DNA from: Liolophura sinensis
Taxonomy: Eukaryota > Mollusca > Polyplacophora > Chitonida > Chitonidae
DNA: 64,000 nucleotides
Assembly: GCF_032854445.1 (NCBI RefSeq)
Contig: NC_088306.1
Coordinates: 27,995,764-28,059,763, forward strand
Reading direction: 5' to 3'
Positions 1-37,970 of the stretch are shown here, in pieces. How positions within the stretch are numbered: position 1 is the first letter of the stretch; the number at the start of each line of letters is the position of its first letter. The notes below the pieces were generated by a model. That model was not told the DNA's origin and made no database searches. It was given only the letters and a program-made list of their open reading frames with translations. The position numbers were made by a program, and so were the translations under genes.

Positions 1-2480
1 ATGGATACCACAACACCTGACCAGTCTACCACAGTTATGGATACCACAACACCTGACCAGTCTACCACACTGATGGATACCACAACACCTGACCAGTCTA
101 CCACAGTGATGGATACCACAACACCTGACCAGTCTACCACAGTGATGGATACCACAACACCTGACCAGTCTACCACAGTGATGGATACCACAACACCTGA
201 CCAGTCTACCACAGTGATGGATACCACAACACCTTACCAGTCTACCACAGAGATGGATACCACAACACCTGACCAGTCTACCACAGTGATGGATATCACA
301 ACAGCTGACCAGTCTACCACAGTGATGGATACCACAACACCTCACCAGTCTACCACAGTGATGGATACCACAACACCTGACCAGTCTACCACAGTGATGG
401 ATACCACAACACCTGACCAGTCTACCACAGTAATGGATACCACAACACCTGAACAGTCTACCACAGTGATGTATACCTCAACACCTGACCAGTCTACCAC
501 AGTGATTGATACCACCACAGCTGGTCAGTCAACCACACTGTTGGATACCACAACAGCTGACCAATCTACCACAGTGATGGATACCACAACAGTTGGCCAG
601 TCTACCACAGTGTTAGATACCACAACTGCTGACCAGTCTACCACAGTGATGGAAATCACAACAGCTGACCAGTCTACCACAGTAATGGATACCACAATAC
701 CTGACCAGTCTACCACAGTGATGGATACCAAAACACCTGCTCGGTCTACCACAGTGACCGATACCACCACAGCTGGTCAGTCAACCACACTGTTGGATAT
801 CACAACAGCTGACCAGTCTACCACAGTGATGGATACCACAACACCTGACCAGTCTACCACAGTTATGGATACCACAACACCTGACCAGTCTACCACAGTT
901 ATGGATACCACAACACCTGACCAGTCTACCACAGTAATGGATACCACAACACCTGACCAGTCTACCACAGTGATGGATACCACAACACCTGACCAGTCTA
1001 CAACAGTGATGGATACCACAACACCTGACCAGTCTACCACAGTGATGGATACCACAAAACCTGACCAGTCTACCACAGTGATGGATACCACAACACCTGA
1101 CCAGTCTACCACAGTGATGGATACCACAACACCTGACCAGTCTACCACAGTGATGGATACCACAACACCTGACCAGTCTACCACAGTGATGGATACCACA
1201 ACACCTGACCAGTCTACCACAGTGATGGATACCACAACAGTTGACCAGTCTACCACAGTGATGGATACCACAACAGCTGACCAGTTTACCACAGTGATGG
1301 ATACCACAACACCTGACCAGTCTACCACAGTGATGGATACCACAACACCTGACCAGTCTACCACAGTGATGGATACCACAACACCTGACCAGTCTACCAC
1401 AGTGATGGATACCACAACACCTGACCAGTCTACCACAGTTATGGATACCACAACACCTGACCAGTCTACCACACTGATGTATGCCACAACACCTGACCAG
1501 TCTACCACAGTAATGGATACCACAACACCTGAACAGTCTACCACAGTGATGTATACCTCAACACCTGACCAGTCTACCACAGTGATCGATACCACCACAG
1601 CTGGTCAGTCAACCACACTGTTGGATACCACAACAGCTGACCAATCTACCACAGTGATGGATACCACAACAGTTGGCCAGTCTACCACAGTGTTAGATAC
1701 CACAACTGCTGACCAGTCTACCACAGTGATGGAAATCACAACAGCTGACCAGTCTACCACAGTAATGGATACCACAATACCTGACCAGTCTACCACAGTG
1801 ATGGATACCAAAACACCTGCTCGGTCTACCACAGTGACCATACCACAACAACTGACCAGTCTACCACAGTGATAGATACCACAACACCTGACCAGTCTAC
1901 CACAGTGATGTATACCTCAACACCTGACCAGTCTACCACAGTGATCGATACCACCACAGCTGGTCAGTCAACCACACTGTTGGATACCACAACACCTGAC
2001 CAGTCTACCACAGTGATGGATACCACAACACCTGACCAGTCTACCACAGTTATGGATACCACAACACTTGACCAGTCTACCACAGTGATGGATACCACAA
2101 CACCTCACCAGTCTACCACAGTGATGGATACCACAACACCTCACCAGTCTACCACAGTGATGGATACCACAACACCTGACCAGTCTACCACAGTGATGGA
2201 TACCACAACACCTGACCAGTCTACCACAGTGATGGATACCACAACACCTCACCAGTCTACCACAGTGATGGATACCACAACACCTGACCAGTCTACCACA
2301 GTTATGGATACCACAACAGCTGACCAGTCTACCACAGTGATGGATACCATAACACCTGACCAGTCTACCACAGTGATGGATACCACAACACCTGACCAGT
2401 CTACCACAGTGATGGATACCACAACACCTGACCAGTCTACCACAGTGATGGATACCACAACACTTGAGCATTCCACAAGT
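1..2480 (+). repeat. 36-bp tandem array coding MDTTTPDQSTTV, with a 1080-bp higher-order copy
   Basis: About 69 head-to-tail 36-bp units, most differing by 0-3 bases. The block at 421-760, with marker variants GAACAG, ATGTATACCTCA and GCTCGG, recurs at 1501-1838, an offset of 1080 bp or exactly 30 units. A third partial copy of the variant string starts near 1907. Identical third-codon-position choices across units (GAT ACC ACA ACA) point to recent DNA-level homogenisation rather than selection on protein sequence alone. Confidence 0.95.
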
Positions 2481-2601
2481 GTCTTAGTTACCACTAATGA
2501 CGATCGTGGTACAACTTTACCAGACACGACCGTTTTTGAACCGTCGACTTTTTCAACCGGTGGTTCTACTGTTACTCCTTACTGGGAGATGTCAACTGGA
2601 G
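1..2601 (+). CDS. Giant Thr-rich mucin-like repeat protein, exon a (5' partial, one frameshift)
   Basis: The reading frame enters the window already inside a tandem array, so the ATG at position 1 is only the first residue of a repeat unit. About 69 units of 12 residues (consensus MDTTTPDQSTTV) run to about 2480. A degenerate Thr/Ser-rich tail follows, and the exon ends in AG/GTTAGT with the donor GT at 2602-2603, in phase 1. About half of all residues are Thr, and Cys is absent. This composition is that of an O-glycosylated mucin-type (PTS) domain, probably secreted or at the cell surface; that function is inferred from composition alone. Near 1840 one G is missing relative to the sister copy at 760 (GACCGATACC there, GACCATACC here). 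This shifts the frame into a stop at 1870-1872 while the repeat continues in frame 3. It is either a real disabling mutation or a sequence error. No named family member could be identified. Confidence 0.75.
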
Positions 2602-3942
2602 GTTAGTGAACCTTTGTTTTGGGTTTACCTATCCGCATGCTGGTAATGGGAGATGTACGCTGTGGACAGGAATATGGTACTGGTATATATATCTCAACAT
2701 TTGTTTAAATTATCATAGTCAAATGTTCAAATGGAGTAGGGCATCCAATATTGATTGCAATGTTTTTTAATTATTCAAACTCAGTCTTTAGTAAACTTGA
2801 ATTGTGAAATTTGATTTTACATGGCCGATTATTTTATACTTTTCTATTTTTAAGAGATAAGAAATAAGCTCTGTATATGGGTCCCTTTTTTAAATTTGTA
2901 CGACCATTTTTTTTTTTGTTTAAATTTATTTAATGTTTACACTCTGTCACTTTTAATACACTTTAGATTTTTTTGCAAATACAGAAAATTGAATCGCAGG
3001 CGATTATATAAATATATTTTATTAGATTTTTATATGTAACTGTCCCTTAGAAAAGCATTCATCGTCTATTTACCATATAAGTGTATATATGTGTTTGTAT
3101 ATATGTCCAAAACTAGTTTCACAACTATAGTAGCTATGCAAATTTAACTTGTGTTAACTTGTATTGATGTCGTTAGATGGCCGTGTCATGTTGTCATTAT
3201 GTGCTATTTGAAAGAAGGGGAAATAAAGTTTTATTAAGTCACAACTGATGAAATAACGGCTGGTCCGTTAAGTCACATAAATTATTGTGTAAATGTAGAT
3301 CTACATTTTTGTTTGAATACCTATGAATACATATTTGCCATGTAAATGTAAAGCATGTAAGCCTATAATCATATACATATGTACAGTGTACAGTTTTCAT
3401 GAAAATAATGAAAATTGTGTAAAATTCTGTGAAAACAATGTGATGTGTTTCAATGAGATGAACTGGAAATTCGAGCGTTAATTATAAAAATTATGATCCG
3501 AATGTGCACTCTGCAATGAATAAACTAAGCCATTTTTTAGAAATTATTCACATATTTTTCTCTTTGTTGTTCATTATTAACACTGTGTCATATTTGTAGT
3601 AACGCCATGTAAACCTTCTAACACGTGATTGAGCATCGCTGTACAGGCAATTGGTGAGACAATCATGGAAGAAAAATTACCTTTCAAATATTCGGATCAA
3701 AATTAAAATTTCCCTCAGACGACGAGAATAAGAAAATTGTTACTATGACGCAATAGCTCGAACTTTCTCGCGTTATAAGACGGTTTAAAGATAATCCTGT
3801 AAGTGAACCGTTAAACAGATAAAAATACAACCAAATGCACATGGTATTCTGGAACTTCACAACTGGCTTAGCTATTAAACTAAAAGAGAGTTCTTTAACA
3901 CCATCGTGTTTTTGTATTTGTATTTAAAAAGTAAATATAAAT

Positions 3943-4165
3943 ATCATAGCTCAGTCGCTAAAGCGTTGTACCCGCCGCGACGATTGGTCCCATGGCCACT
4001 GAGATCACAGGTTCAAATCTGACGCTCGTTGCTTCAGACGCGACTGATGCTTTGTCAGGTTCCTCAGATACCTGAGTAAGCGAGGTTGTTTCACATCCGG
4101 GCATTCCAGTTTCCGCCACCCACAAATCTGACCACCATCATATAAGTGAATAGATTAAAATAGAT
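3943..4165 (+). repeat. tRNA-derived SINE
   Basis: A tRNA-like head starts at 3947 with an A-box-like TAGCTCAGTCGCTAAAGCG, and a B-box-like GGTTCAAATCT lies at 4010-4020. A non-tRNA body follows and ends near an AT-rich tail. The spacing of the two boxes (about 60 bp) suits an internal Pol III promoter. It lies in the intron of the giant gene and is probably a degenerate, inactive copy. Confidence 0.6.
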
Positions 4166-5054
4166 AAATTAACTTTTTCAAAGATCCCCTAACAGGAATG
4201 AAGTGAGAATGATATCTAAAATGCCCATAAAAAGTCACCGCCAAAGCAGGGATGAACAACAGACGTCCTATGTACGGATTACTTTAGGCAGGGAAAATCT
4301 CCCATCTAACACTTTTGTTTTAGACGTCGCAGTACGCGAGGGAACCAAGACTTTACGTCTGCCGAGAGATGTATACTAGATATTCTGATAAAATCTACCA
4401 AAATGGTCAGATAATCCATTTTATTATTTATGTAAAGGTGAAATGTCAGGATTTCCTTTACTGATAAAAGTGATATCTCATTGGTTAGACTTATTACACA
4501 CCCGAACACCATGGCGTCAAAAGGCACGTTGTTTTATAATGTAACAATCCCAGCTTAGCATGACGTTATAATACAAGTACAGTCACCTTTAACACTTCTT
4601 ACGTCACGCAACAAGACACGACGTCATACCAGACATCAAGTGCGTCGTCGGGGGATATACCCAAGTCTGTGAAGGCTTACATCTAAAAACATCGCTTAAA
4701 CTTGTTCAAATACACAAAACCACGATATTGCCAAAATAAAATTAATAAATAGAATACTTCACAGTGAACGTTGAAAACCATAAATATTTTCACCTCTCAC
4801 GACAAGAATATTTATGATATTCAATCTTCACTGTGCAATATCATCTGCATCATTGCTCACAGTGGGCACAATGTATAAACACAGAACATTCAGCCGCCGT
4901 CAGTTAGTTTGAAATTTTCTTAGGCCTTCACAATTTTAACTGTCAAGTTTTGGGACTTGATTTGACCGGTAAAAATTTTGATCTTAATTCGGAAGGCGAA
5001 TGAAAAAATTAAAAAACGACGGAAAATCCCGTACAATCACAGCTGACTTGAGCA

Positions 5055-5185
5055 ATGGACATCATCATCTGATAAAACGACATTCACACGGTGCGATGGT
5101 CGAGTCGACAACTCAAATGAAAATAGGACGTGTGGTATTTGGTGTGCTTCATATGATTCAGCAAAATCGCATCATTTGAACGCTT
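5055..5185. repeat. Dispersed MITE-like fragment (related to 40030-40335)
   Basis: Contains TTCACACGGTGCGATGG, GTCGAGTCGACAA and AAAATCGCATCATTTGAACG. A similar set of words in similar order is found at 40030-40335 (TTCACACGATGAGATTGTCG, ATTCGACAAAAT, AAATCGCATCAGG). The two are divergent copies of one non-coding dispersed family; class unknown. Confidence 0.35.
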
Positions 5186-5269
5186 TTGATGACATAGATC
5201 TGGGTGTCCTATTCTCCACTTGTCTAATTTACGAGTTGACAGACACATCTCACCGAGTGAACATGGTTA

Positions 5270-6050
5270 ATGGCTATGTTCTTTGTCAGATGCGATAATG
5301 TATTCTCGGACATTGGCGAATAAAGTGATATTCTCAGTAAGATGCGTTTATGTACCCTCGGATACTAGCGAATAACATTAGGCTCTGAGTCAGAAGTGAT
5401 AATGTACCCTCGGATACTAGCAAATAACATTAGGTTCTGAGTCAGAAGTGATAATGTATCCTCGGACACTAGCGAATAACATTAGGCTCTGAGTCAGAAG
5501 TGATAATGTACCCTCGGATACTAGCAAATAACATTAGGCTCTGAGTCAGAAGTGATAATGTACCCTCGGATACTAGCAAATAACATTAGGCTCTGAGTCA
5601 GAAGTGATAATGTACCCTCGGACAATAGCGAATAACCTTAGGCTCTGAGTCAGAAGTGATAATGTACCATCGGACATTAGCGAATACCGTTATGTTCTGA
5701 GTCAGAAGCGATAATGTACCCTCGGACATTTGCAAATAACATTAGGCTCTGAGTCAGAAGTGATAATGTACCCTCGGATACTAGCGAATAACATTAGGCT
5801 CTGAGTCAGAAGTGATAATGTACCCTCGGACATTAGCGAATACCGTTATGTTCTGAGTCAGAAGTGATAATGTACCCTCGGACATTTGCGAATAATGTTG
5901 TGTTTTGAATCTGAGTCAAATGCGATAATATACCCTCTGACATCAGCTAATAACATTATGTTCTAAGTCGTGTGACATAATGCAGCATGGGACATCAGTT
6001 AATAACGTAATGTTCTGAATCAGATGCGAGAATGCACGCTCAGACATCAC
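5270..6050. repeat. 52-bp minisatellite
   Basis: About 14 imperfect tandem units of about 52 bp. Each carries GATAATGTACCCTCGGA, then TAGCGAATAACATTAG, then TCTGAGTCAGAAG. The central units (5340-5880) are the most similar and both flanks are degenerate. Non-coding, within the intron. Confidence 0.9.
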
Positions 6051-6130
6051 CTAATAACGATCTGCCCCAGTTTCACAAAGCCTCCTTAGTATTAAATCGC
6101 CCTTCATATTTTTATAATATACACTGTCAT

Positions 6131-6243
6131 GGTTATTTATTTATTTATTTGATTGGGGTTTTACGCAGTACTCAAGAATATTTCACTTATACAACGGCGG
6201 CCCGACCATCTGCAGGATGCTGTCAGACCTTCTTACGTACCAC
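6131..6243 (+). repeat. Molluscan dispersed repeat (TTTA-headed), truncated
   Basis: A (TTTA)n head, then GATTGGGGTTTTACGCAGTA, CTCAAGAATATTTCACTTAT and a GGCGGCC/CCATCTGCAGG block. The order is the same as in the better copies at 51150 and 61090. Shortened by an internal deletion. Confidence 0.7.
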
Positions 6244-6409
6244 TGTCATGGTAGATAAGGGCATAGCTAAGAGCATTGTTATGAAACATGAAACCGGCGC
6301 GAAGTCATCAATTTCGGTGTCCACCAGGTGGTGTTTACTGGTTCACTGGTCGTTGTATGAATATGGTCGGATATAAATGTCTGATATACATGATATACAT
6401 GTAGGTGTT

Positions 6410-6945
6410 GTACACGAACAGCATGTTGTCTTGTCTCTGAATCATCTCCGGTTGTACATGTACAGTATGTTGTCTTGTCTCTGAATGCTTTCCATTTGTA
6501 TATGTACAGTATGTTGTCTTGTCTCTGAATCACTTCCGGTTGTACATGCACAGTATGTTGTCTTGTCTCTGAATAATTTCCAGTTGTACATGTACAGTAT
6601 GTTGTCTTGTCTCTGAATAATTCTCAGTTGTACATGTACAGTATGTTGTCTTGTCTCTGAATCCTTTCCATTTGTATATGTACAGTATGTTGTCTTGTCT
6701 CTGAATCACTTCCGGTTGTACATGCACAGTATGTTGTCTTGTCTCTGAATAATTTCCAGTTGTACATGTACAGTATGTTGTCTTGTCTCTGAATAATTCT
6801 CAGTTGTACATGTACAGTATGTTGTCTTGTCTCTGAATCCTTTCCATTTGTATATGTACAGTATGTTGTCTTGTCTCTGAATCACTTCCGGTTGTACATG
6901 CACAGTATGTTGTCTTGTCTCTGAATCATTTCCGGTTGTACTGTC
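6410..6945. repeat. 44-bp minisatellite with 176-bp higher-order period
   Basis: About 12 units of 44 bp, each with TGTTGTCTTGTCTCTGAAT followed by a variable stretch and GTACATGTACAGTA. The variants recur every four units: the translated frames at 6530-6727 and 6706-6903 are identical, an offset of 176 bp or 4 x 44. Non-coding. Confidence 0.9.
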
Positions 6946-7703
6946 CTGTGCCCAACACTTCAGAAATTTTGGGTGTAGGCTTACAAAAAATTCCCGTATG
7001 TTTAAGTTGTCTTGTTTTCTGTATACTTTACCTCGTGTTTTTATTTTTTCGTCTCTAAAACTAATGTTTCTAAAAAGAAATTCGCATCATGAATCAGATC
7101 TAAAATACCTTGGTGTTTAGTGGCATCTGTAGAGAACCCAAACAAAACAAATTCTATAAAATTCAACGAATGTAACAAGATGTAGTGTACAAACGGAAAA
7201 GGTGTATTGCACCATGAAAATTAGATTAACTCTTCACTTAAATAAATATTTAAATCAGAACCGTGCATGTCTACGACTCCACAGTTCCGTAATTTCCAAA
7301 ACATGAAAACTTACAAGAATACAACTAAAACCATAAATTCAAAACCGCGCCACTTTGTTTAATTTTGATTTAATTCTTCATTTATTTAACGAGGAGTTCT
7401 CACAGCCTGATGGCTACTACGGGGATCTCCTCAAGATATCAATTGACAACATTGACAACTAACGAAGGACATACATATAAATATGTGAATACATATTTCA
7501 GATAACAGAATATCAGTTGAAAAAATTATTATTTACAATGTTCACATCGTTATCATCATTACCTTGGTAATAAAATCTTTCACTTTAGATTCGACGTATA
7601 CATATATCACAAAAAGAGCATCAAGAACATCGCAAAAATAAACGTCTAAACTTGAAAATAATGTAATATAATCTCATCTATTTTCATCATTTCCTCAAAA
7701 CAG

Positions 7704-10700
7704 GTACAACGCAGCCCTACGCTCTAATAGACACAAGTACATCTGGACATCATGCAACAGTTACTACGATACATACAACAACATCCAAGCAGGCTTCACT
7801 GGTGATGAACATCACAAAAGATGACCAGTCCACAACGCCGACGACAGAAATATATCCGTCCAGAAGAAAACCGGATACCACGAGGTATGGCCAGTCTACA
7901 ACAATAATGGACACCACAACATCTAGTCAGATTGAAACAATGCATACCATCACCGCTGGTCAGTCCACAACAGCAATGGACACCACAACAACTGGCAAGC
8001 CTATAACAATAATGAACACCACAACACCTAGTCATTCCATAGCAATCCATACCACCACTGGTTACCAGGCAACCTCTTTGATGGACATGAAAACAGGTCA
8101 TAAAACCACAACTGTATTAGATATCACAATATTAGACCAAAAACCTGTGATGGATACAAAAATAAATGACCAGACCACAGCAGTTATGGATACCACAACA
8201 GTTGACCAGCCCACTACAATGATGGGTACTACAACTGGTGACCAGACAACAACAGTTATGGATACCACAACAGTTGACCAGCCCACAACAATGATGGGTA
8301 CTACAACTGGTGACCAGCCCACTACGATGATGGATACCACAACAGCTGACCAGCTCACTACAATGATGGGTACTACAACTGGTGACCAGCCCACTACGAT
8401 GATGGGTACCACAACTGGTGACCATCCCACTACGATGATGGGTACCACAACTGGTGACCAGCCCACTACGATGATGGGTACCACAACTGGTGACCAGCCC
8501 ACTACGATGATGGGTACCACAACTGGTGACCAGCCCACTACGATGATGGATACCACAACAGCTGACCAGCTCACTACAATGATGGGTACTACAACTGGTG
8601 ACCAGACAACAACAGTTATGGATACCATAACGGTTGACCAGCCCACTACAATGATGGGTACCACAACAGTTGACCAGCCCACTACGATGATGGATACCAC
8701 AACAGCTGACCAGCCCACTACAATGATGGGTACTACAACTGGTGACCAGACAACAACAGTTATGGATACCACAACAGCTGACCAGCCCACTACAATGATG
8801 GGTACCACAACTGGTGACCAGCCCACTACGATGATGGGTACCACAACTGGTGACCAGCCCACTACGATGATGGGTACCACAACTGGTGACCAGCCCACTA
8901 CGATGATGGGTACTACAACTGGTGACCAGCCCACTACAGTGATGGATACCACATCAAGTGACCAGATAACAACAGTGATAGATATCACAACAGGTGACCA
9001 GAAAACAACAGTGATAGATACCACAACAGGTGACCAGATCACAACCGCCATGGACACCAACAAAGGAGACACAACCAAAACTGTAATGGATATCACAACA
9101 GGTGACGAGATCACAACAGTGATGGATACCACAACAGGTGACCAGGTCACAACTGTGATTAATACCACAAAAGGTAAACAGACAACAACAGTGGTGGATA
9201 CCACAAAAGACGGCAAGACCACAAATGCAATGGACAAAACCACAAATGTAATAGATACCACAAAAAGTAACCAGATCACAACTGCGATGGATACCAACCC
9301 AGGGGACACAACCACAACTGTACTGGATATCACAACAGGTAACCAGATCACAACTGCAATGGACAACACCACAGGTGGCCAGCCCACAACAGCAGTGGAT
9401 ACCACAGGCGGTGATCAGACCACATCTGTAATGCCTATAACATCAGGTGCCCAGACCATCACAATAATACATACCACAACAGGGGATAAGGCCACATCGG
9501 GGATGGATACTACAACGGGTAACCACACCACAAGTGTGATCGATACAAAAACAGCTGAAGAGACCACATCGGTAATGGCTAACACTGCAGGAGACAGGAC
9601 CACAACTGTAATTTCTACCACAACAGATGACAGGTCCACCACGTTAATGGATACCACAACAGATGACAGGCCCACCACGTTAATGGATACCACAACAGGG
9701 GAGAAGAATACATCTGTGATGGATATCACAACAGCTGACCAGACAATGATAGTAAAGGATGAAACCGCAGCTGACCAGACCACAACTGTAATGGACATCA
9801 CAAGAGGTGACCAATACAAAACAGTAATGGATACCACAGTAGGTGAACAGACCACATCTGTATTGCCTACCACAAGAGGTGACATAACCACAACTGTAAT
9901 GGATACCACAACAGGGGAGAAGACTACATCTGTAATGCCTACCACAAGAGAAGAAGCAACCACAACTGTGATGTATACCACAAAAGAGGAGATAACCAAA
10001 TCTGTAATGGATACCACATCAGGTGACCAGACCATATCTGTAATGGCTACCAGTGCAGGTGAAAGGGCCACAACTATTATAGATGCATCAGCTAGCCAGA
10101 CAAAAACTGTGATCAATACCACAACAGGCAACCAAAAAACAACTGTAATACATACCTCAACAGCTGGTCACACCACAACTGTAATAGGTAAAACAACACA
10201 TGATCAGACCACTCCAAAAATGGATACCACAACAGTAGACAAAACCACATCTGTAATGGATACCATAACAGGCAACCAAACCACAACTGTGATGGATACC
10301 ACAAAAGCTGACCAGACCAAATCTGTAATGGCTACCAGTGCAGGTGACAGAAACACGACTATGATGGATCACACAACAGGTGACCAGGCCACAACTGTAA
10401 TGGATAAAACATTAGCTGACCAAACCACATCTATCATGGCTACCAGTATAGGTGACATGACCACAACTATGAAGGATGCCACAACAGATGACCATGCCAC
10501 AACTGTGAGGGATATCTCAACAGGTGACCGAACCACAATTTTCACTGATACCACAGGAGCTGACAAGACCACATCTGTAATGCCTACCACAGCAGGTGAC
10601 AAGACCACAACCATGATAGATGCCACAACAGGTGACCAGGTCACAACTGTAATAGATACCTCAACAGGTAACCAGGCCACAACAGTGATAAATGCCGCAA

Positions 10701-13700
10701 CAGTTGACAAAACCACATCTAGAATCGATATCACAACAGGTAACAATTCCACGACTGTAATAGCCACCACAACACCTGGCCAGACTACAACTGTAATACC
10801 TGCCACAACGGATAACAGGACCACCACTGTAATGAATACCACAACAGGGGAGAAAACCACATCTGTGATGGATACCACAACAGCTGACCAGACCACAAAT
10901 GTGATGGATGCCACCACAGCTAATCAGGCCACAACTGTTATCAATATTATAACAGACAACCAAACCACAACTGAAATAAATACCACAACAACTGACCAGA
11001 CCAAAACTGCAATAGGTTACACAACATTTGACAAAACAAAATCTCTGATGGATACCACATCAGATAAGCAGACTACAACTGTGATAGATACCACAACAGC
11101 TGCCCAGACCACAACTTTGATCGATACCACAATAGGCAACCAAACCACAACTGTAATAGATAAAACAACAGCTGGCCAAACCACAACTGTAAAAGATATC
11201 ACAACAGCTGGCCAGACCGCAACTGTGATAGGTAACACAACAACTAAACACACCACTCCAAAGATGGATACCACAACAGTAGACCAGGCAACAATTGTAA
11301 TGGATACAACAACAGATGACCAGACCACATCTGTAATACCTACCACAACAGATTACCAGACCACATCTGTAATAGCTACAACAACAGACGAAAAAATCAC
11401 ATCTGTAATGCCTACCACAACAGATGATCAGACCACATCTGTAATGGCTACCAGTGCAGGTGATAGAACCACAACTATGATGGATGCAACAACAGGTGAC
11501 CAAACTGCAATTGTGATGGATAACACAACAGCTCACCAAACCAGATCTGTAATGGCTACAAGTGTAGGTGACAGGATTACGACTATTATGGATGCCACAA
11601 CAGGTAAACAGGCCACAGATGTAATGGATATCACAATAGGTGACCACACCAAATCTGTAATGGCTACCACAACAGATGAACAGACCACATCTGTAATGAA
11701 CATAACAACAGGGGAGAACACCACATCTGTGACCACAGCAAGTGACAACACTACAACCATGATGGATGCCACAACAGGTGATCTGGTCACAAATGTAATG
11801 GATACAACATTAGGTGACCAGGCCACAACAATGATAAATACCACAACAGTTGACACAACCACATATAGGTTCAACACCACAACAGGTAACAATACCACGA
11901 CTGTGATAGACACCAAAACACCTGGCCAGACCACAACTGTCATGCCTACCACAACATATGACAGGACCACCACTGTAATGGATATCAAAATTGTAATAGA
12001 TACCACAACACCTCAACAGACCACTCCAATCATGGACATTACAACAGTAGACAAAACAACATCTGTAATGGATACCATAATAGGTGATCACGCCACAACA
12101 GTGATAAACACCACAACAGGGAAGAACACCACATTTGTGACCACAGCAAGTGAAAAGACTACAACCATTAAGGATGCCACAACAGGTGACCAGGTCACCA
12201 CTCTAATAGATACCACACCAGGTGACCAGGCCACAACACTGATGAATACCACAACAGTTGACAGAACCACATCTAGGATCGATATCACAACAGGTAAAAA
12301 TCCTACGACTGTGATACACACCACAACAGATGGCCAGAACACAAATGTAACACCTTCCACAACAGATGACAGGACCAACTCTGAATTAGATACCACAACA
12401 TGGGAGAAGACCACATCTGCAATGCATACCAAAACAGCTGACCAGACCACAAATATGACGGATGTCACCGCAGCTAGCCAGACCACAACTGTAATCCATA
12501 CCACAACAGGCAACCAAACCACAACAACTGGCCAGACCACAATTGTCATACCTGCCACAACAGATGAGAAGACCACCACTGTTATGCATACAAAAACACG
12601 GGAGACCACATCTGTGATGACTACAACAACAGCTGACCAGACCACAAATGTGATGAATACCACCACAGCTGACCAGGCCACAGCTGTGATCGATACTACA
12701 ACAGGCAACCAAACCACAACTGTAATACATACCACAACAGCTGGCCAGACCACAACTGTGATAGATACCACAACAGGTGACCAAACCAAAACAATGATAG
12801 ATATCACAACAGCTGGACAGACCACAACTGTAATAAATGTACCAACAGGTGACCAGACCACATCTGTAATGGCTATTACTGCAGGTAACAGGACCACGAC
12901 TACGATGGACCCCTCAGCAGGTGACCAGGACACAACTGTGATGGATACCAAAACAGATAACCAAACCGAAAATGTGCTGAATAACACAACAGCTGACAAG
13001 AACACACCTGTAAAAGCTACCAGTGCAGGTGACAGGACCACGACTGCAATGGATGCCACAATACTTGATCAAACCACAAATATGATGGATAAGACAACAG
13101 CTGACCTAAACCAATCTGTAATGGCTACCAGTGCAGGTGGCAGGACAACGACTGCAACGTATGCCACAACAGGGGAGAAGACCGCATCTGTGATGGATAC
13201 CACAACAGCTGACCTGAACACATCTGTAATGGCTACCAATGCAGGTTTCAGGACCACGACTGCAACAGATGCCACAACAGGGGAGAAGACCGCATTTGTG
13301 ATGGATACCACAACAGCTGACAACAACACATCTGTAATGGCTACCAGTGCAGGTAACAGGACCACGACTGCAACGTATGCCACAACAGGGGAGAATACCG
13401 CATCTGTGATGGATACCACAACAGCTGACCAGAACACAATTGTAATAGCTACCAGTGCAGGTGACAGGACCACAACTGTAATAGATGCCATAAGAGGGGA
13501 GAAAACGACATCTGTAATGGACACCACAACAGCTGACCAGACTACAACCATTATGGATGCCACCACAGCTGACCAGACCACAACTGTAATACCTACCACA
13601 ACAGGCAAACAAACCACAACTGTGATAGATACAACAACAGCTGGCAACACCACAACTCTGATCGATACAACAACTGCCAAACAAAGCACAACTGTCATTC

Positions 13701-25700: not shown

Positions 25701-28700
25701 TGCCTACTACTGCAGGTAACTGGACCAAGACTACCATGGACCCCTCAGCAGGTGACCAGGCCACAACTGTGATGAACACCAAAACAGATACCCAAACCGC
25801 AAATGTTATGGATAACACAACAGCTGACCAGAACACATCTGTAATGGCTACCAGTGCAGGTGTCAGGACCACGACTGCAATGGATGCCACAACACTTGAC
25901 CAACCCACAAATATGATGGATAACACAACAGCTGACCTGAACACATCTGTAATGGCTACCAGTGCAGGTGACAGGACCACGACTGCAACAGATGCCACAA
26001 CAGGAGAGAAGACCGCATCTGTGATGGATACCACAACAGCTGACCAGAACACATCTGTAATGGCTACCAGCGCATGTGACAGGACCACGACTGCAACGGA
26101 TGCCACAACAGGGGAGAAAATGACATCTGTAATGGACACCACAACAGCTGACCAGACCACAACCATTATGGATGCCACCACAGCTGACCAGACCACAACT
26201 GTAATACCTACCACAACAGGCAACCAAACCACAACTGTGATAGATACCACAACAGTTAGCAACACCACAACTCTGATCGATACAACAATTTCCAAACAAA
26301 GCACAACTGTCATTCATACCACAACAGCAGGTCATACCACAACTATGATAGGTAACACAACACCTGAACAGACCACTCCAATGATGGATACCACAACAGT
26401 ACACAAAACCACATCTGCAATGGACACCATAACAGGTAACCAAGCCAAGACTATGATAAATACCACAACAGCAGGCCAAACCACAACTGTAATAGATACC
26501 ACAACAGCAGGCCAGATCACATCTGTGATAGGTAACACAACACCTGAACAGACCACTCTAATGATAGATACCACAACAGTACACAAAACCACATCTGCAA
26601 TGGATACCATAACAGGCAACAAAAGCACGACTGTGATACATACCACAACAGCTGGTCAAACCGCAACTGTGATGTGATACCACATCAGGTGACCAGGCCA
26701 CATCTATAGTAGCTACTAGTGCAAGTGACAGAACCACGACTATGAAGGACCCTACAGCAGGTGACCAGGCCACAACTATGAAAGATACCACAACAGGTGA
26801 CCAGGTCACTACTGTAATAGATACAACAACAGGTGACCAGGCCACAACAGTGATAAATACCCAAAACAGTTGACACAACCACATCTAGGTTCAATACCAC
26901 AACAGGTAACAATACGACTTTGATAGACACCAAAACACCTGGCCAGACCACAACTGTCATACCTACCTGGAACATATGACAGGACCACCACTGTAATGGA
27001 TATCATAACTGTAATAGACAACACAACACCTCAACAGACCACTCCAATCATGGATATTACAACAGTAGACAGAACAACATCTGTAATGGATACCATAACA
27101 GGTGACCAGGCCACAACAGTGATGAATACCACAACAGGAAAGAACACCACATCTGTGACCACAGCAAGTGACAAGACTACAACCATAGATGGATGCCACA
27201 ACAGGTGACCTGGTCACAAATGTAATGGATACCACAACAGGTTACCAGGCCACAACAGTGATGAATACCACAACAGTTGACAGAACCACATCTAAGATCG
27301 ATACCACAACAGGTAAAAATTCTACGACTGTGATACACATCACAACAGATGGCCAGAACACAAATGTAACACCAACCACAACAGATGACAGGACCACCTC
27401 TGTAATGGATACCACAACATGGGAGAAGACCACTTCTGCAATGGATACCAAAACAGCTAATCAGACCACAAATATAATGGATGTCACCACAGCTCGCCAG
27501 ACCACAACTGTAATCCCATAACACAATAGGCAACCAAACCACAACAACTGGCCAGACCACAATTGTAATACCTGCCACAACAAATGAGAGGGACTACCAC
27601 TGTAATGCATACCAAAACACGGGAGAAGACCACATCTGTGTTGACTACAACAACAGCTGACCAGACCACAAATGTGATGAATACCACCACAGCTCACCAG
27701 GCCACAGCTGTGATCGATACTACAACAAGCAACCAAGCCACAACTGTAAGACATACCACAACAGCTGGCCAGACCACAACTGTGATAGATACCACAACAG
27801 GGGACAAAACCAAAAAAATGATAGATATCACAACAGCTGAACACACCACAACTGTGATGAATACTACAACAGTTGACCAGACCACATCTGTAATGCCTAC
27901 TACTGCAGGTAACAGGACCACGACTACGATGGACCCCTCAGCAGGTGACCAGGCCACAACTGTGATGGATACCAAAACAGATAACCAAACTGCAAATGTT
28001 ATGGATAACACAACAGCTGACAAGAACACATCTGTAATGACTACCAGTGCAGGTGTCAGGACAACGACTGCAATGGATGCCACTACACTTGACCAAACAA
28101 CAAATATAATGGATACCACAACAGCTGACTTGAACACATCTGTAATGGCTACCAGTGCTGGTGTCAGGACCACGACTGCAACAGATGCCACAACAGGGGA
28201 GAAGACCGCATCTGTGATGGATACCACAACAGCTGACCAGAACACATCTCTAATGGCTACCAGTGCAGGTGACAGGACCACGACTGTAATAGACGCCACA
28301 ACAGGGGAGAAAACGACATCTGTAATGGATACCACAACAGCTGACCAGACTACAACCATTATGGATGCCACCACAGCTGGCCAGACCACAACTGTAATAC
28401 CTACCACAACAGGCAACCAATCCACAACTGTGATAGATACCACAACAGTTGGCAACAACACAACTCTGATCGATACAACAACTGCCAAACAAAGCACAAC
28501 TGTCATTCATACCACAACAGCAGGTCATACCACAACTATGATAGGTAACACAACACCTAAACAGACCACTCCAACGATGGATACCACAACAGTACACACA
28601 ACCACATCTGCAATGGACACCATAACAGGTAACCAGGCCAAGACTGTGATAAATACCACAACAGCAAGCCAAACCACAACTGTAATAGATACCACAACAG

Positions 28701-31700
28701 CAGGCCAGATCACATCTGTGATAGGTAACACAACACCTGAACAGACCACTCTTATGATGGATACCACAACAGTAGACAAAACCACATCTGCAATGGATAC
28801 CATAACAGGCAACCAAAGCACGACTGTGATACATACCACAACAGCTGGTCAAACCGCAACTGTGATGGATACCACATCAGGTGACCAGGCCACATTTGTA
28901 GTAGCTACTACTGCAAGTGACAGAACCACGACTATAATGGATCCTACAGCAGGTGACCAGGCCACAACTATGAAAGATACCACAACAGGTGACCTGGTCA
29001 CAACTGTAAAAGATACAACAACAGGTGACAAGGCCACAACAGTGATAAATACCACAACAGTTGACAGAACCACATCTAGGATCAATACCACAACAGGTAA
29101 AAATTCTACGACTGTGATACACACCACAACAGCTGGCCAGAACACAAATGTAATACCTACCACAACAGATGACAGGACCACCTCTGTAATGGATACCACA
29201 ACATGGGAGAAGACCACATCTGCAATGGATACCAAAACAGCTGACCAGACCACAAATATGATGGATGTCACCACATCTGGCCAGACCACAACTGTAATCG
29301 ATACCACAACAGGCAACCAAACCACAACAACTGGCCAGACCACAATTGTAATACCTGCCACAACAGATGAGAGGACTACCACTGTAATGCATGCCAAAAC
29401 ACGGAAGACCACATCTGTGATGACTACAACAACAGCTGACCAGACCACAAATGTGATGAATACCACCACAGCTGACCAGGACACAGCTGTGATCAATACT
29501 ACAACATGCAACCAAACCACAACTGTAATACATATCACAACAGCTGGCCAGACCACAACTGTGATAGACACCACAACAGCTGATCAAACCAAAACAATGA
29601 TAGATATCACAACAGCTGGACAGACCACAACTCTGATAAATGCACCAACACGTGACCAGACCACATCTGTAATGCCTACTACTGCAGGTAACAGGACCAC
29701 GACTACGATGGACCCCTCAGCAGATGACCAGGACACAACTGTGATGGATACCAAAACAGATAACCAAACTGCAAATGTTATGGATAACACAACAGCTGAC
29801 CAGAACACATCTGTAATGGCTACCAGTGCAGGTGTCAGGACCACGACTGCAATGGATGCCACAACACTTGACCAAACCACAAATATGATGGATAACACAA
29901 CAGCTGACCTGAACACATCTGTAATGGTTACCAGTGCAGGTGACAGGACCACGACTGCAACAGATGCCACAACAGGGGAGAAGACAGCATTTGTGATGGA
30001 TACCATAACAGCTGACCAGAACACATCTGTAATGGCTACCAGTGCAGGTGACAAAACCACGACTGTAAAACATGCCACAACAGGGGAGAAAACGACATCT
30101 GTAATGGACACCACAACAGCTGACCAGACCACAACCATTATGGATGCCACCACAGCTGACCAGACCACAACTGCAATACCTACCACAACAGGCAACCAAA
30201 CCACAACTGTGATAGATACAACAACAGCTGGCAACACCACAACTCTGATCGATACAACAACTGCCAAACAAAGCACAACTGTCATTCATACCACAACAGC
30301 AGGTCATGCCACAACTATGATAGGTAACACAACACCTGAACAGACCACTCCAATGATGGATACCACAACAGTACACAAAACCACATCTGCAATGGACACC
30401 ATAACAGGTAACCAAACCAAGACTGTGAAAAATACCACAACAGCAGGCCAAACCACAACTGTAATAGATACAACAACAGCAGGCCAGATCACATCTGTGA
30501 TAGGTAACACAACACCTGAACAGACCACTCTAATGATAGATACCACAACAGTAGAAAAAACCACATCTGCAATGGATACCATAACAGGCAACAAAAGCAC
30601 GACTGTGATACATACCACAACAGCTGGTCAAACCGCAACTGTGATGGATACCACATCTTTGATGGATACCAAAACAGATAACCAAACTGCAAATGTTATG
30701 GATAACACAACAGCTGACCAGAACACATCTGTAATGGCTACCAGTGCAGGTGTCAGGACCACGACTGCAATGGATGCCACAACACTTGACCAAACCACAA
30801 ATATGATGGATAACACAACAGCTGACCTGAACACATCTGTAATGGTTACCAGTGCAGGTGACAGGACCACGACTGCAACAGATGCCACAACAGGGGAGAA
30901 GACAGCATTTGTGATGGATACCATAACAGCTGACCAGAACACATCTGTAATGGCTACCAGTGCAGGTGACAAAACCACGACTGTAAAACATGCCACAACA
31001 GGGGAGAAAACGACATCTGTAATGGACACCACAACAGCTGACCAGACCACAACCATTATGGATGCCACCACAGCTGACCAGACCACAACTGCAATACCTA
31101 CCACAACAGGCAACCAAACCACAACTGTGATAGATACAACAACAGCTGGCAACACCACAACTCTGATCGATACAACAACTGCCAAACAAAGCACAACTGT
31201 CATTCATACCACAACAGCAGGTCATGCCACAACTATGATAGGTAACACAACACCTGAACAGACCACTCCAATGATGGATACCACAACAGTACACAAAACC
31301 ACATCTGCAATGGACACCATAACAGGTAACCAAACCAAGACTGTGAAAAATACCACAACAGCAGGCCAAACCACAACTGTAATAGATACAACAACAGCAG
31401 GCCAGATCACATCTGTGATAGGTAACACAACACCTGAACAGACCACTCTAATGATAGATACCACAACAGTAGAAAAAACCACATCTGCAATGGATACCAT
31501 AACAGGCAACAAAAGCACGACTGTGATACATACCACAACAGCTGGTCAAACCGCAACTGTGATGGATACCACATCAGGTGACCAGGCCACATCTATAGTA
31601 GCTACTACTGCAAGTGACAGAACCACGACTATGATGGATCCTACAGCAGGTGACCAGGCCACAACTATGATAGATACCACAACAGGTGACCAGGTCACAG

Positions 31701-34700
31701 CTGTAATAGATACAACAACAGGTGACCAGGCCACAACAGTGATAAATACCAAAACAGTTGACACAACCACATCTAGGTTCTATACCACAACAGGTAACAA
31801 TACCACAACTGTGATAGACACCAAAACACCTGGCCAGACCAAAACTGTCAGACCTACCACAACATATGACAGGACCACCACTGTAATTGATATCATAACT
31901 GTAATAGATAACACAACACCTCAACAGACCACTCCAATCATGGATATTACAACAGTAGACAAAACAACATCTGTAATCGATACCATAGCAGGTGACCAGG
32001 CCACAACAGTGATGAATACCACAACAGGGGAGAACACAACATCTGTAACCACAGCAAGTGACAAGACTACAACCGTGATGGATGCCACAACAGGTGACCT
32101 GGTCACCAATGTAATGGATACCACAATAGGTGACCAGGCCACAACAGTGATGAATACCACAACAGTTGACAGAACCACATCTAAGATCGATACCACAACA
32201 GGTAAAAATTCTACGACTGTGATACACACCACAACAGCTGGCCAGAACACAAATGTAATACCTACCACAACAGATGACAGGACCACCTCTGTAATGGATA
32301 CCACAACATGGGAGAAGGCCACATCTGCAATGGATACCACAACAGCTGACCAGACCACAAATATGATGGATTCCACCACAGCTGGCCAGGCCACAAATGT
32401 AATCGATACCACAACAGGCAACCAAACCACAACAACTGGCCAGACCACAATTGTAATACCTGCCACAACAGATGAGAGGACCACCACTGTAATGCATACC
32501 AAAACACAGACCACATCTGTGTTGACTACAACAACAGCTGACCAGACCACAAATGTGATGAATACCACCACAGCTGACCAGGCCACAGCTGTGATCGATA
32601 CTACAACAGGCAACCAAACCACAACAGGGAACCAAACCAAAACAATGATAGATATCACAACAGCTGGACAGACCACAACTGTAATAAATGCACCAACAGG
32701 TGACCAGACCACATCTGTAATGGCTACTACTGCAGGTAACAGGACCACGACTACGATGGACCCCTCAACAGGTGACCAGGACACAACTGTGATGGATACC
32801 AAAATAGATAACCAAACCGCAAATGTGATGAATAACACAACAGCTGACCAGAACACATCTGTAATAGATACCACAACAGCTGGCCAGACCACAACTGTGA
32901 TAGATAACACAACACCTGAAGAGACAATTCCAATGATCGATACCAAAACAGCAGACAAAACCACATCTGTAATGGAAACCAGTGCAGGTAACCAAGCCAC
33001 AACTGTGATAGATACCACAATAGCTGGCCAAACCACAACTGTAATAGATACCACATCAGGGGACCAGATCACATCTGTAAGGCCCACCACAAAAGATGAC
33101 CAGACCAGATCTGTAATGCCTACGACAACAGATGACCAGACTACATCTGTCATGGCTACCACAGATGGAGACAAGACCACAATCATCATGGATGACACAA
33201 CAGGTGACCAGGTCACCACACTAATAGATACCACACCAGGTGAGCAGGCCACAACAGTGATAAATACCACAACAGTTGACAAAACCACATCTAGGATCGA
33301 TACCACAACAGGTAACAATACCACGACTCTGATACACACCACAACAGCTGGCCAGACGACAACTGTAATACCTGCCACAACCAATGACAAAACCACCACT
33401 GTAATGGATACCACAACAGGGAAGAAGACCACATCTGTGATGACTACAACAGCTGACCAGACCACAACCATTATGGATGCCACCACAGCTGATCAGGCCA
33501 CAACTGTAACCGATACCACAACAGGCAACCAAATTACAACTGTAATAAATACCACAACAGCTGGCCAGACAACAACTGTGATTGATACCACAATAGGCAA
33601 CCAAACCACATCTGTAATGGCTACCACAACAGCAGGCCAGACATCAACTGTGATAGGTAACACAACACCTGAACAGACCACTCCAACGATGGATACCACA
33701 GCAGTAGACAACACCACATCTGTAATGGAAACCATAACAGGTAACCAAGCCACGACTGTGATAGATACATCAGATGGCCAGACGACATCTGTAATGACTA
33801 CCACAACCGATGAACAGACCACATCTGTAATGTCTACCACAACAGATGACCAGACCACATCTGTAATGGCTACAAGTGCAGGTGACTCCACCACGACTAT
33901 TACAGATGCCACAACAGCTGACCAGGCCACAACTGTAATGGATACCACAGCAGATGACCAAGCCACATCTGTAATGCCTATTACAACAGATGAACAAACC
34001 ACATCTGTAATGGATACCCCAACAGCTGACCAGACCACAAATGTCATGGATGTCACAACAGCTAAACAAACCATGACAGCGATGGATGCCACCACAGCTG
34101 ATCAGTCCACAACTGTGATCGATACCACAACAGTTCACAAAGCAAAATCTGTGATGGATACCACAACAGGTGGACAGACCACAACTGTGACAGATACCAC
34201 AACAGCTGGCCAGACAACAACTAAGATCGACACCACAACAGTCAACCAAACCACAACTGTAATACATACCACAATAGCTGGCCAGACAACAACTGTGATA
34301 GGTAACACAATACCTAAACATTCCACTCCAATGATGAATACTACAACAGTAGACAAAACCACACCTGTAATGAATACCATAACAGGTAACCAAACCAAGT
34401 TGGTGATCAATACCACAACAGCAGGCCAAACCTCAACTGTAATAGATACCACAACGGCTGGCCAGACCACAACTGTGATAGATAACACAACACCTGAAGA
34501 GACAACTCCAATGATCGATACCAAAACAGCAGACAAAACCACATCTGTAATGGAAACCAGTGCAGGTAACCAAGCCACAACTGTGATAGATACCACAATA
34601 GCTGGCCAAACCACAACAGTAATATATACCACATCAGGGGAGCAGATCACATCTGTAAGGCCCACCACAAAAGATGACCAGACCAGATCTGTAATGCCTA

Positions 34701-37700
34701 CGACAACAGATGACCAGACTACATCTGTCATGGCTACCACAGATGGAGACAAGACCACAATCATCATGGATGCCACAACAGGTGACCAGGTCACCACTCT
34801 AATAGATACCACACCAGGTGACCAGGCCACAACAGTGATAAATACCACAACAGTTGACAAAACCACATCTAGGATCGATACCACAACAGGTAACAATACC
34901 ACGACTCTGATACACACCACAACAGCTGGCCAGACGACAACTGTAATACCTGCCACAACCAATGACAAAACCACATCTGTAATGGATACCACAACAGGGA
35001 ATAAGACCACATCTGTGATGACTACAACAGCTGACCAAACCACAACCATTATTGATGCCACAACAGCTGATCAGGCCACAACTGTAACCGATACAACAAC
35101 AGGCAACCAAATTACAACTGTAATAAATACCACAACAGCTGGCCAGACAACAACTGTGATTGATGCCACAAAAGGCAACCAAACCACATCTGTAATGGCT
35201 ACCACAAAAGCAGGCCAGACATCAACTGTGATAGGTAACACAACACCTGAACAGACCACTCCAACGATGGATACCACAGCAGTAGACAACACCACATCTG
35301 TAATGGAAACCATAACAGGTAACCAAGCCACGACTGTGATAGATACAACATCAGGTGGCCAGACGACATCTGTAATGTCTACCACAACAGATGACCAGAC
35401 CACATCTGTAATGGCTACAAATGCAGGTGACTCCACCACGACTATTACAGATGCCATAACAGCTGACCAGGCCACAACTGTAATGGATACCACAGCAGAT
35501 GACCAAACCACATCTGTAATGGCTATTACAACAGATGAACAAACCACATCTGTAATGGATACCACAACAGCAGGCCAGACAACAACTGTGATAGGTAACA
35601 CAACACCTGAACAGACCACTCCAACGATGGATACCACCACAGTAGACAACACCACATCTGTAATGGAAAGCATAACAGCTGACCAGACCACAACCATTAT
35701 GGATGCCACCAGAGCTTCCCAGGCCAAAACTGTAATCGATACCACAACAGGCAACCAAACCATAACTGTAATATATACCACAACAGCTGGCCAGACAACA
35801 ACTGTGATCGGTACCACAACAGGCAACCAAACCACATCTTTAATGGCTACCACAACAGCAGGCCAGACATCAACTGTGATAGGTAACACAACACCTGAAC
35901 AGACCACTCCAACGATGGATACCACAGCAGTAGACAACACCACATCTGTAATGGAAACCATAACAGGTAACCAAGCCACGACTGTGATAGATACAACATC
36001 AGGTGGCCAGACGACATCTGTAATGACTACCACAACCGATGAACAGACCGCATCTGTAATGTCTACCACAACAGATGACCAGACCACATCTGTAATGGCT
36101 ACAAGTGCAGGTGACTCCACCACGACTATTACAGATGCCACAACAGCTGACCAGGCCACAACTGTAATGGATACCACAGCAGATGACCAAACCACATCTG
36201 TAATGGCTATTACAACAGATGAACAAACCACATCTGTAATGGATACCACAACAGCTGACCAGACCACAAATGTCATGGATGCCACAACAGCTAAACAAAC
36301 CATGACAGCGATGGATGCCACCACAGCTGATCAGTCCACAACTGTGACAGATACCACAACAGCTGGCCAGACAACAACTAAGATCGACACCACAACAATC
36401 AACCAAACCACGACTGTAATACATACCACAACAGCAGGCCAGACAACAACTGTGACAGGTAACACAATACCTAAACATTCCACTCCAATGATGGATACCA
36501 CAACAGTAGACAAAACTACACCTGTAATGCATACCATAACAGGTAACCAGTCCATGACTGTAACAGATACCACAACAGCTGGCCAAAACACAACTGTGAT
36601 GGATACAACATCAGGTGACCAGACCACATCTGTAATGGCGACCATTGCAGATGACAAGACCACGACTATGAAGGATCTCACAACAAGTGAACAGGCCACA
36701 AATGTGATGGACACCACAACAGATGACCAGGCCACATCTATAATGGCAACAGATGACCAAACCACATCTGTAATGTCTACCACACCAGATGACCAGACCA
36801 CATCTGTAATGGCTACCAGTGCATGTAATAGGACCACGACTATAATGAATGCCACAACAGATGACCAGGTCACAACTGTAATATATACCACAACAGGAGA
36901 CCAGGCCACAACAGTGATAAATACCGCAACAGTTGACAAAACCACATTTAGAATCGATATCACAGCAGGTAACAATTCAACGACTGTGATACACACCACA
37001 ACACCTGGCCAGACTACAACTGTAATACCTGCCACAACAGATGACAGGACCACCACTGTAATGGATACCACAACAGGGGAGAAGACCACATCTGTGATGG
37101 ATACCACAGCTGACCAGACCACAACCATGATGGATGCCACCACAGCTGACCAGGCAACAACTGTAATGGCTACCACAACAGCTGGCCAGACAACAACTGT
37201 GATAGGTAAAACAACACCTGAACAGACCACTCCAATGATGGATACCACAACAGTAGACAAAACCAAATCTGTAATGGAAACCATAACAGGTAACCAAGCC
37301 ACGACTGTGACAGATACCACAACAGCTGGCCAAACCTCATCTGTAACAGATACCACAACAGCTGACCAGACTACAACTGTGATATATATTACAACAAATG
37401 ATCAGGCCACAACTGTAATGGATACCCCAACACGTGACAAGACCACAACAGTGCTGGATACCACAACAGGTCATAAGACCACATCTGTAATAGATACCAC
37501 AACAGCTGACCAGACTACAACTGTGATATATATTACAACAAATGATCAGGCCACAACTGCAATGGATACCCCAACACGTGACAAGACCACAACAGTGCTG
37601 GATGCCACAACAGGTCATAAGACCACATCTGTAATAGATACCACAACAGCTGACCAGACTACAACTGTAATGGATACCATAACAGGTGACCAGACCACAA

Positions 37701-37833
37701 CTGTAATGTCTACTTTAAGCCTTGATATGTCCACAACAGTCATGGATACCACAAGAAGTAGGCAATTTTCAACGGGAATGGATACCAAAACACCTGATCA
37801 GTTCACAACAGTGGGTGATACGGAAACACCTGG
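7704..37833 (+). CDS. Giant Thr-rich mucin-like repeat protein, exon b (about 30 kb)
   Basis: A single exon of about 10,040 codons built of roughly 830 units of 12 residues. The general form is V-[M/I]-[D/H/N/P/A]-T-T-T-[A/G/P/V]-[G/D]-[Q/K/R]-T-T-[T/S]. About half the residues are Thr, and Cys, Tyr and Phe are rare. Unlike exon a, many units carry N-Q-T or N-T-T, so N-glycosylation sequons are dense alongside the presumed O-glycan sites. The likely role, from composition only, is an extended extracellular mucus, matrix or byssus-like glycoprotein. The acceptor is at 7703/7704. The 3' donor is TGG/GTGAGT with GT at 37834, phase 2; without splicing a TGA follows at 37835-37837. The frame is intact from 7704 to 26674 and from about 27593 to 37833; the stretch between carries six one-base insertions (separate entry). 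No flanking domain (VWD, EGF, SEA, membrane segment) is visible in the window. Confidence 0.8.
8190..8950 (+). repeat. Recently expanded sub-block of the coding array (MGTTTGDQPTTM units)
   Basis: About 21 units of 36 bp alternate between MGTTTGDQPTTM and MDTTTADQ/VDQ variants. Neighbouring units are near identical at DNA level (CCCACTACGATGATGGGTAC recurs many times). The flanking units (7800-8160 and 8950-12400) are far more divergent, so this block expanded later than its surroundings. Confidence 0.85.
26675..27592 (+). other. Patch with six single-base insertions in the coding array
   Basis: Compared with sister copies, one extra base is present at 26675 (T), about 26860-26862 (C), 26968 (T), 27187 (A), about 27514-27516 (C) and about 27589-27592 (G). 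Open frames match exactly: frame 2 is lost at 26675, regained at 26996-27186 after three insertions, replaced by frame 3 from 27189, and regained near 27584 after the sixth. There are no compensating deletions, and no comparable cluster elsewhere in 30 kb. Confidence 0.85.
26996..30657 (+). repeat. Near-identical copy of about 16410-20060, offset 10,593 bp
   Basis: Rare variants are shared at a constant offset. Examples are GTAGACAGAACAAC (16476 and 27065), the AACAACACAACTCTGATCG unit, the 1779-bp-long higher-order unit, and ACATGCAACC near 18911 and 29504. Only scattered single-base differences are seen by eye (for example AACCAAACC to AACCAAGCC). The similarity is clearly higher than between other higher-order copies, so this is the most recent large duplication, or an assembly-level one. 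Confidence 0.85.
29742..31577 (+). repeat. 918-bp tandem duplication
   Basis: 29742-30657 is repeated almost perfectly at 30660-31575, including the private change GACAAAACCACG (30051 and 30969) that replaces GACAGGACCACG of the older copy. The junction at 30651-30662 reads ACCACATCTTTGATGG, joining two units out of register with loss of most of one unit. The length is 306 codons, so the frame is kept. Confidence 0.9.
32870..36330 (+). repeat. Second higher-order repeat, 1578-bp offset
   Basis: The block with NTTPEETxPMID, METSAGNQATT, VRPTTKDDQTRS and MATTDGDKTTI at 32911-34100 recurs at 34489-36300. AACACCTGAAGAGACAA lies at 32911 and 34489, and the NTTPEQTTPTMD unit at about 33656 and 35234, both 1578 bp apart. 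Smaller internal copies lie at about 35596 and 35881. This family is distinct in variant content from the upstream 1.8-2.3 kb family. Confidence 0.85.
37349..37660 (+). repeat. 144-bp (four-unit) tandem repeat at the end of exon b
   Basis: The four-unit string containing VIYITTNDQATT, MDTPTRDKTTTV and GHKTTSVIDTTT begins at 37349 and again at 37493, 144 bp later. Only a few bases differ between the copies. It is the last regular part of the array; units after 37700 become degenerate. Confidence 0.9.
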
Positions 37834-37970
37834 GTGAGTTACAGAAGTAATGGATTTCGCTACAGGTGATGAGCTCAAAACGCCAGCATAGCCCGTCAAT
37901 CAGGGAATGGATATCAAAACAGTTGACGCATTTGTAAATATTAACGTCACGATTTTGTGATGTCCAACAC
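37834..37970 (+). pseudogene. Decayed repeat units beyond the exon b donor
   Basis: The sequence after the GTGAGT donor still reads, in the exon b frame, as degenerate repeat units: an EVMDFATGDELKTPA-like stretch, then stop, then a GMDIKTVDAFVN-like stretch. Stops occur at 37835 and at TAG in GCATAGCCC. The array therefore once extended further, and its end now lies in intron (if the donor is used) or 3' untranslated sequence. Confidence 0.6.

Follow-up and report, generated by a model that had tools for sequence, protein, structure and literature searches.

In vertebrates, the SEA-type mucins MUC1, MUC12, MUC16 and MUC17 combine a SEA domain, a membrane helix and Thr/Ser-rich repeats, the latter encoded by an exon of very large size. 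TMPRSS6 and related type II transmembrane serine proteases carry a membrane helix and then a SEA domain on their N-terminal side. One source gives the mucin order as signal peptide, repeats, SEA, helix and tail, and describes in a sea anemone a mucin-1-like protein that is a SEA mucin outside vertebrates but has the signal peptide first and the helix last (PMC9080433). Another describes IMPG1 and IMPG2, which have two SEA domains, one with a self-cleaving motif, and gives the self-cleaving SEA sequence as GSxxV, x being V or I (PMC9478142); both proteins are interphotoreceptor-matrix proteoglycans rather than 12-mer mucins. As to size, a medRxiv preprint reports a range of 55,233 bp among human MUC12 alleles, with up to 23,080 residues (PMC13345508).

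The locus described here lies in the chiton Liolophura sinensis. The window, meaning the whole 64,000-nucleotide stretch that was analysed, was placed at C12:27995764-28059763 by a DNA search of the 609-Mb, 632-contig genome, and positions follow window numbering unless a contig is named. On another contig, C8:37880506-37891931 holds eight consecutive matches, free of internal stops, to the mollusc-specific hemocyanin family Haemocyan_bet_s (PF14830), which matched in none of 14 control genomes; for one of these units, 11 different PDB sequences, every one named hemocyanin, match with E values no higher than 1e-100. These matches mark the genome as very probably that of a mollusc.

The window seems to hold the final two exons of a mollusc giant-mucin gene. 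Like the vertebrate SEA-type mucins, this gene joins SEA and helix to Thr/Ser-rich repeats that fill very large exons, and the large Thr/Ser/Pro-rich tandem repeat of that class is present. Unlike them, it has, in the gene model, the helix and SEA A ahead of the repeats, which come last, and it contains three SEA-mucin modules. With the TMPRSS6-type proteases it shares an N-terminal helix and SEA, but mucin repeats follow its SEA domains and the Pfam-scanned pieces gave no protease match; a PDB sequence search with SEA B returned only non-significant matches (E 0.8 and 1.7, the latter TMPRSS6). The same scanned pieces, a subset of exons plus downstream minus-strand ORFs, gave no match to the von Willebrand D or cystine-knot domains of gel-forming mucins. 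The gene stands at the top of the reported mucin size range, not beyond it, and its novelty would lie in the inverted order. A preliminary description of this DNA had ranked its 30-kb repeat exon above those of other mucins, a claim less supported given the human MUC12 sizes in the preprint cited above (PMC13345508). A search of open-licence PMC literature found nothing on a mollusc SEA-domain mucin or on a type II mucin.

Exon structure, SEA domains and the membrane helix

All 13 exons of the gene model lie on the plus strand and have GT-AG edges; together they amount to 73,015 bp, or about 24,300 codons with the broken stretches counted unmended. The model opens with a putative cytoplasmic and transmembrane (TM) exon (C12:27948942-27949329, 388 bp) and a linker exon (C12:27949888-27949917, 30 bp). 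Three modules follow, each with a SEA domain divided over three exons and then a mucin stretch (3 of 3). SEA A occupies exons A1, A2 and A3 (C12:27950360-27950469, 27950682-27950749 and 27951121-27952820; 110, 68 and 1,700 bp), A3 holding the end of the domain and continuing into the mucin stem. SEA B is encoded by B1, B2 and B3 (C12:27953196-27953302, 27953689-27953756 and 27954141-27958362; the first two 107 and 68 bp), and SEA C by C1, C2 and C3 (C12:27958692-27958798, 27958954-27959021 and 27959239-27980582; the first two again 107 and 68 bp). In C3 (21,344 bp), SEA C is fused directly to the 12-mer array in a single stop-free frame of 7,114 codons. The mucin exons D (C12:27983696-27998364, 14,669 bp) and E (C12:28003467-28033600, window 7704-37837, 30,134 bp including the stop codon) complete the model, E being the probable last exon. 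The TM exon starts at a TGG preceded by CAG, as in the neighbour gene discussed below, and an ATG-bearing first exon was not located in the upstream flank sequence.

Within the window, exon D contributes positions 1-2601, a 12-mer repeat, and a 5,102-bp GT-AG intron of phase 1 (2602-7703) separates it from exon E. Two earlier proposals, the array and exon boundaries at 2601 and 7704, are borne out: the donor reads GGAG/GTTAGT and the acceptor AAAACAG/GTACAA, and the adjoining open frames give phase 1 on either side. Read in the same way, every one of the module junctions (A3/B1, B3/C1, C3/D and D/E) has phase 1, and at C3/D and D/E the donor and acceptor sequences are nearly identical and in phase. 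The two introns at these last junctions have two short matches in common (77 and 31 bp), and exon D is preceded by an acceptor whose pyrimidine tract is poor (7 of 16). Intron D-E also holds minisatellites of 52 bp (5285-5895) and of 44 bp with a 176-bp higher-order period (6407-6941). Splice-site scoring finds no acceptor-like site in the 30 kb of exon E, against 1.3 per 10 kb in shuffled sequence. This scarcity might be one reason that an exon of such size is tolerated, an argument weakened by intron D-E, which likewise has none.

When spliced sequences are searched, all three SEA domains exceed the Pfam cut-off of 26.4 bits (A 40.9, B 58.2 and C 69.7 bits), and these domains, joined in phase upstream, support the earlier proposal of a mucin-like coding repeat. 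Pfam run on single unspliced exons gave no SEA and produced low-complexity matches that were taken as spurious (MgtE_N in exon D at 28.2 bits, above its cut-off; DUF963 and others below threshold). At the cleavage site, SEA A reads GSIIV, SEA B GSIVI and SEA C GSLII; since the self-cleaving motif is GSxxV with x as V or I, only SEA A, which adjoins the helix, fits it exactly and may cleave itself. The hydrophobic helix lies ahead of SEA A. SEA domains and mucin repeats are extracellular, and by the charge rule a basic stretch before a helix puts the N-terminal part in the cytoplasm; basic residues flank this helix on both sides, so that the rule leaves its orientation as the most doubtful point of the model.

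When SEA B, and the TM exon plus SEA A, were used as protein queries against the genome, every match fell in an exon of the giant itself and the neighbour gene was missed, so further relatives may lie elsewhere in the genome. A genome-wide search for the SEA family found nothing and is uninformative, since none of the 14 control genomes gave a signal.

The 12-residue array and its reading frame

The array unit is a Thr-rich 12-mer (36 bp), and the initial estimate of about 900 copies in the window holds up: TRF counts 68.6 copies at 1-2467, and in exon E, the broken stretch excluded, a cyclic profile finds 522 units in one open part and 285 in the other. Over the array exons of the whole gene, again outside that stretch, the profile gives 1,804 units. 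Thr makes up 35% of exon C3, 38-39% of exon D, 37% of both open parts of exon E and 40% of window 1-1839 (245 of 613 residues), so that the roughly 50% put forward at first is corrected to 37-40% in the window. Exon E is low in Ser (4%) and Pro (2%); Cys is absent from C3 and D and occurs six times in the open parts of E. The units of exon E are nested within larger duplicated blocks, among them two 916-bp copies (29742-30657 and 30660-31575, plus strand, together spanning 29742-31575) of 100% identity, which reflect either a very recent duplication or an assembly effect. A genome search with 166 array residues gave at least 156 matches; scoring covered 150 out of 1,908 candidates, and the array matches among those listed all fall within C12:27959969-28033633.

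Stop-free frames of 7,114 codons in C3 and of 6,322 and 3,422 codons in exon E are too long to be due to chance; in window coordinates, exon E is open at 7667-26677 (6,336 codons) and 27569-37837 (3,422 codons). Both repeat exons first described, the 30-kb one included, do exist, but they are not open throughout, with breaks near 1839 and at 26675-27590. As assembled, three exons carry frame breaks. Exon B3 has a one-base break, and exon D lacks one base near 1839, at the end of a 339/340-base match to an earlier block. The broken stretch of exon E (26675-27590, plus strand) holds six single-base insertions relative to an intact copy and 17 in-frame stops (26675-27566). Across 26500-27700 (1,201 bp), identity to the intact in-frame copy at about 15913-17107 is 98.75%, with nine substitutions, six one-base insertions and no deletions. 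Because the insertions add up to +6, the frame is restored behind them, and the remaining 29 kb of the exon keeps one frame throughout. With six one-base changes of the same sign packed into 0.9 kb, a net shift divisible by three and a frame kept elsewhere in exon E, the likeliest cause is a local sequence error rather than decay. The MUC12 preprint notes that repeat exons were hand-curated to keep their frames and that an indel was found breaking MUC19 (PMC13345508), which illustrates that frame breaks are common in assembled mucin arrays.

Frame maintenance was assessed on non-overlapping repeat pairs, with observed changes compared to random placement of the same changes. The stretches were chosen for being stop-free, so the nonsense counts are biased. 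In E1, the first open part of exon E, 616 substitutions comprise 430 missense, 186 silent and 0 nonsense (expected 441.2, 166.8 and 7.9), and all three indels are of 3 bases. In E2, the second open part, the counts are 258, 98 and 2 (expected 257.5, 96.4 and 4.1), with four of seven indels of 3 bases and three of one base. Exon C3 shows 1,735 missense, 872 silent and 2 nonsense changes (expected 1,885.2, 693.9 and 30.0), and three of its nine indels are divisible by three, six not; for exon D the figures are 1,338, 592 and 10 (expected 1,387.9, 520.7 and 31.4), with three of five indels divisible by three and two not. The leftover nonsense and non-triplet changes in C3, D and E2 are attributed, without proof, to slipped register in long gapped alignments and, for E2, to the border of the broken stretch. 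With caution, the array frame appears to be held, while residues are nearly free to change in exon E and under mild constraint in C3 and D. Such a pattern would be expected of a glycosylated rod.

The 3' end and a tandem neighbour

A TGA at 37835-37837 (plus strand), within a decaying unit, is the probable stop codon, and the giant protein probably ends there. The decayed unit runs on in frame beyond it to a TAG at 37889, and the first candidate poly(A) signal beyond the stop is an AATAAA at 38214-38219. The preliminary description had held that exon E must end in a donor at 37833 and that both protein ends lie beyond the piece it could see. The first claim is now less supported, with a stop codon at that point and the unit decaying behind it; of the second, the N-terminal half stands (at least 46 kb upstream), but the C-terminus is probably inside the window. 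SEA pieces searched against 86 kb downstream gave no match better than E 0.66. Pfam on eight downstream minus-strand ORFs gave weak matches in one (47915-49015), to a DDE_1 endonuclease (21.7 of 22 bits) and a PHD finger (21.4 of 24 bits), both below threshold; this ORF is probably a decayed or domesticated pogo-like transposase. The region downstream of the gene also contains minisatellites of about 23, 70, 31 and 21 bp (38992-39203, 41230-41597, 53002-53268 and 54004-54332) and, at 57803-58482, a low-complexity repeat (HPSIRPSVHPSNQ-like) whose open frames overlap, each of the three plus-strand frames being open.

A tandem neighbour gene (window -89568 to -83631) lies some 40 kb upstream of the giant's TM exon; it has a TM exon, a linker, a diverged SEA and a short Thr/Ser/Asn-rich stem, after which it stops at a TAA with an AATAAA nearby. 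Its exons measure 364, 24, 107, 68 and 886 bp, and their phases are those of the giant's first five exons (388, 30, 110, 68 and 1,700 bp); the 107/68-bp exon pattern is common to the neighbour, SEA B and SEA C. The neighbour's SEA-like region is without the GS site and falls below Pfam detection. Against a profile of A, B and C it scores E 0.0058, and the best of 998 shuffles reached 0.8; this profile excludes the neighbour's own piece, an earlier one that included it being circular. The TM exons of the two genes resemble each other no more than chance allows (E 0.29). With the SEA diverged and the TM exons not alike, kinship is argued mainly from exon order, phases and the 107/68 pattern. A basic stretch precedes the neighbour's helix, which by the charge rule would place its N-terminal part in the cytoplasm, and the gene as a whole supports a design that would terminate in a mucin stem. 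The interval between the two genes also holds a coding-like tandem repeat of a VTFSDSSDF-like unit (-64900 to -62476), open in several frames on both strands, and a weak SEA-like frame of 36 residues (-61309 to -61202, plus strand, E 0.023).

A proposed inverted tethered mucin and its alternatives

The favoured reading, which we consider somewhat probable, is a giant mucin, tethered to the membrane and some 24,300 residues long, with inverted order (cytoplasm, TM, SEA, mucin), that would end at TGA 37835. Once transcribed and spliced, the gene would yield a cytoplasmic N-terminal part, one helix, SEA A, a Thr/Ser stem of about 500 residues, SEA B, a stem of about 1,340 residues, SEA C and a final stretch of about 22,000 residues, made mostly of the 12-residue unit and spread over exons of 21.3, 14.7 and 30.1 kb. 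Dense O-glycosylation of the Thr-rich units would turn this stretch into a long stiff rod projecting from the cell. At the membrane, SEA A would cut itself at GSIIV while its halves stay together, so that the giant ectodomain could be torn off by shear or released into mucus. Growth of the rod may have come about by in-frame duplication of units and of larger blocks such as the identical 916-bp pair.

An unlikely variant places the end of the gene elsewhere: the same SEA mucin uses the donor-like GTGAGT overlapping the TGA and the protein runs on, perhaps to a C-terminal anchor. That hexamer is a fair donor, and vertebrate mucins do carry SEA, helix and tail at the C-terminus (PMC9080433). The resulting junction, however, would be of phase 2 against phase 1 at the other module junctions, the decayed unit extends past the TGA, an AATAAA lies at 38214, no SEA piece matches well in the 86 kb downstream, and the neighbour ends after its stem. 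It is more doubtful still that the frame breaks are real, which would mean a truncated gene, or at least a truncated allele, with untranslated arrays beyond each break. The assembled sequence does show six insertions in E and a one-base break in each of B3 and D, yet the broken stretch of E, with its six same-sign changes, is 98.75% identical to an intact copy, and the remaining 29 kb of E, although it follows the break in D, still reads in one frame.

The large introns and the weak acceptor before exon D would suit a separate secreted Thr-rich gene, for glue, byssus or mucus, whose arrays do not belong to the SEA gene. We regard this as improbable, with SEA C and the first 7,000 array residues sharing one exon and the C3/D and D/E splice sequences nearly alike and in phase. 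Least probable by far is a non-coding satellite open by accident: tandem 36-bp units within larger duplicated blocks are what such a satellite would show, but frames of 7,114, 6,322 and 3,422 codons, frame-keeping in E1, the in-frame fusion to SEA C and, among the matches listed, the confinement of the unit to this locus all speak against it. The preference for coding over satellite, voiced in the preliminary description, is thereby upheld.

For the inverted tethered mucin, the wider proposal is that molluscs evolved a type II giant mucin with an N-terminal anchor, a self-cleaving SEA at its root, two more SEA domains along the rod where it could also break, and a C-terminal end that stands free, the rod being some 22,000 residues long; we give this an even chance. 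If true, the protein would be among the longest mucins reported, and a SEA-plus-mucin design would be seen to function with its anchor at the opposite end. It would also offer a case for studying transcription, splicing and secretion from a 73-kb coding message with exons of 15-30 kb, and would let one ask whether SEA is a general breakaway joint irrespective of topology.
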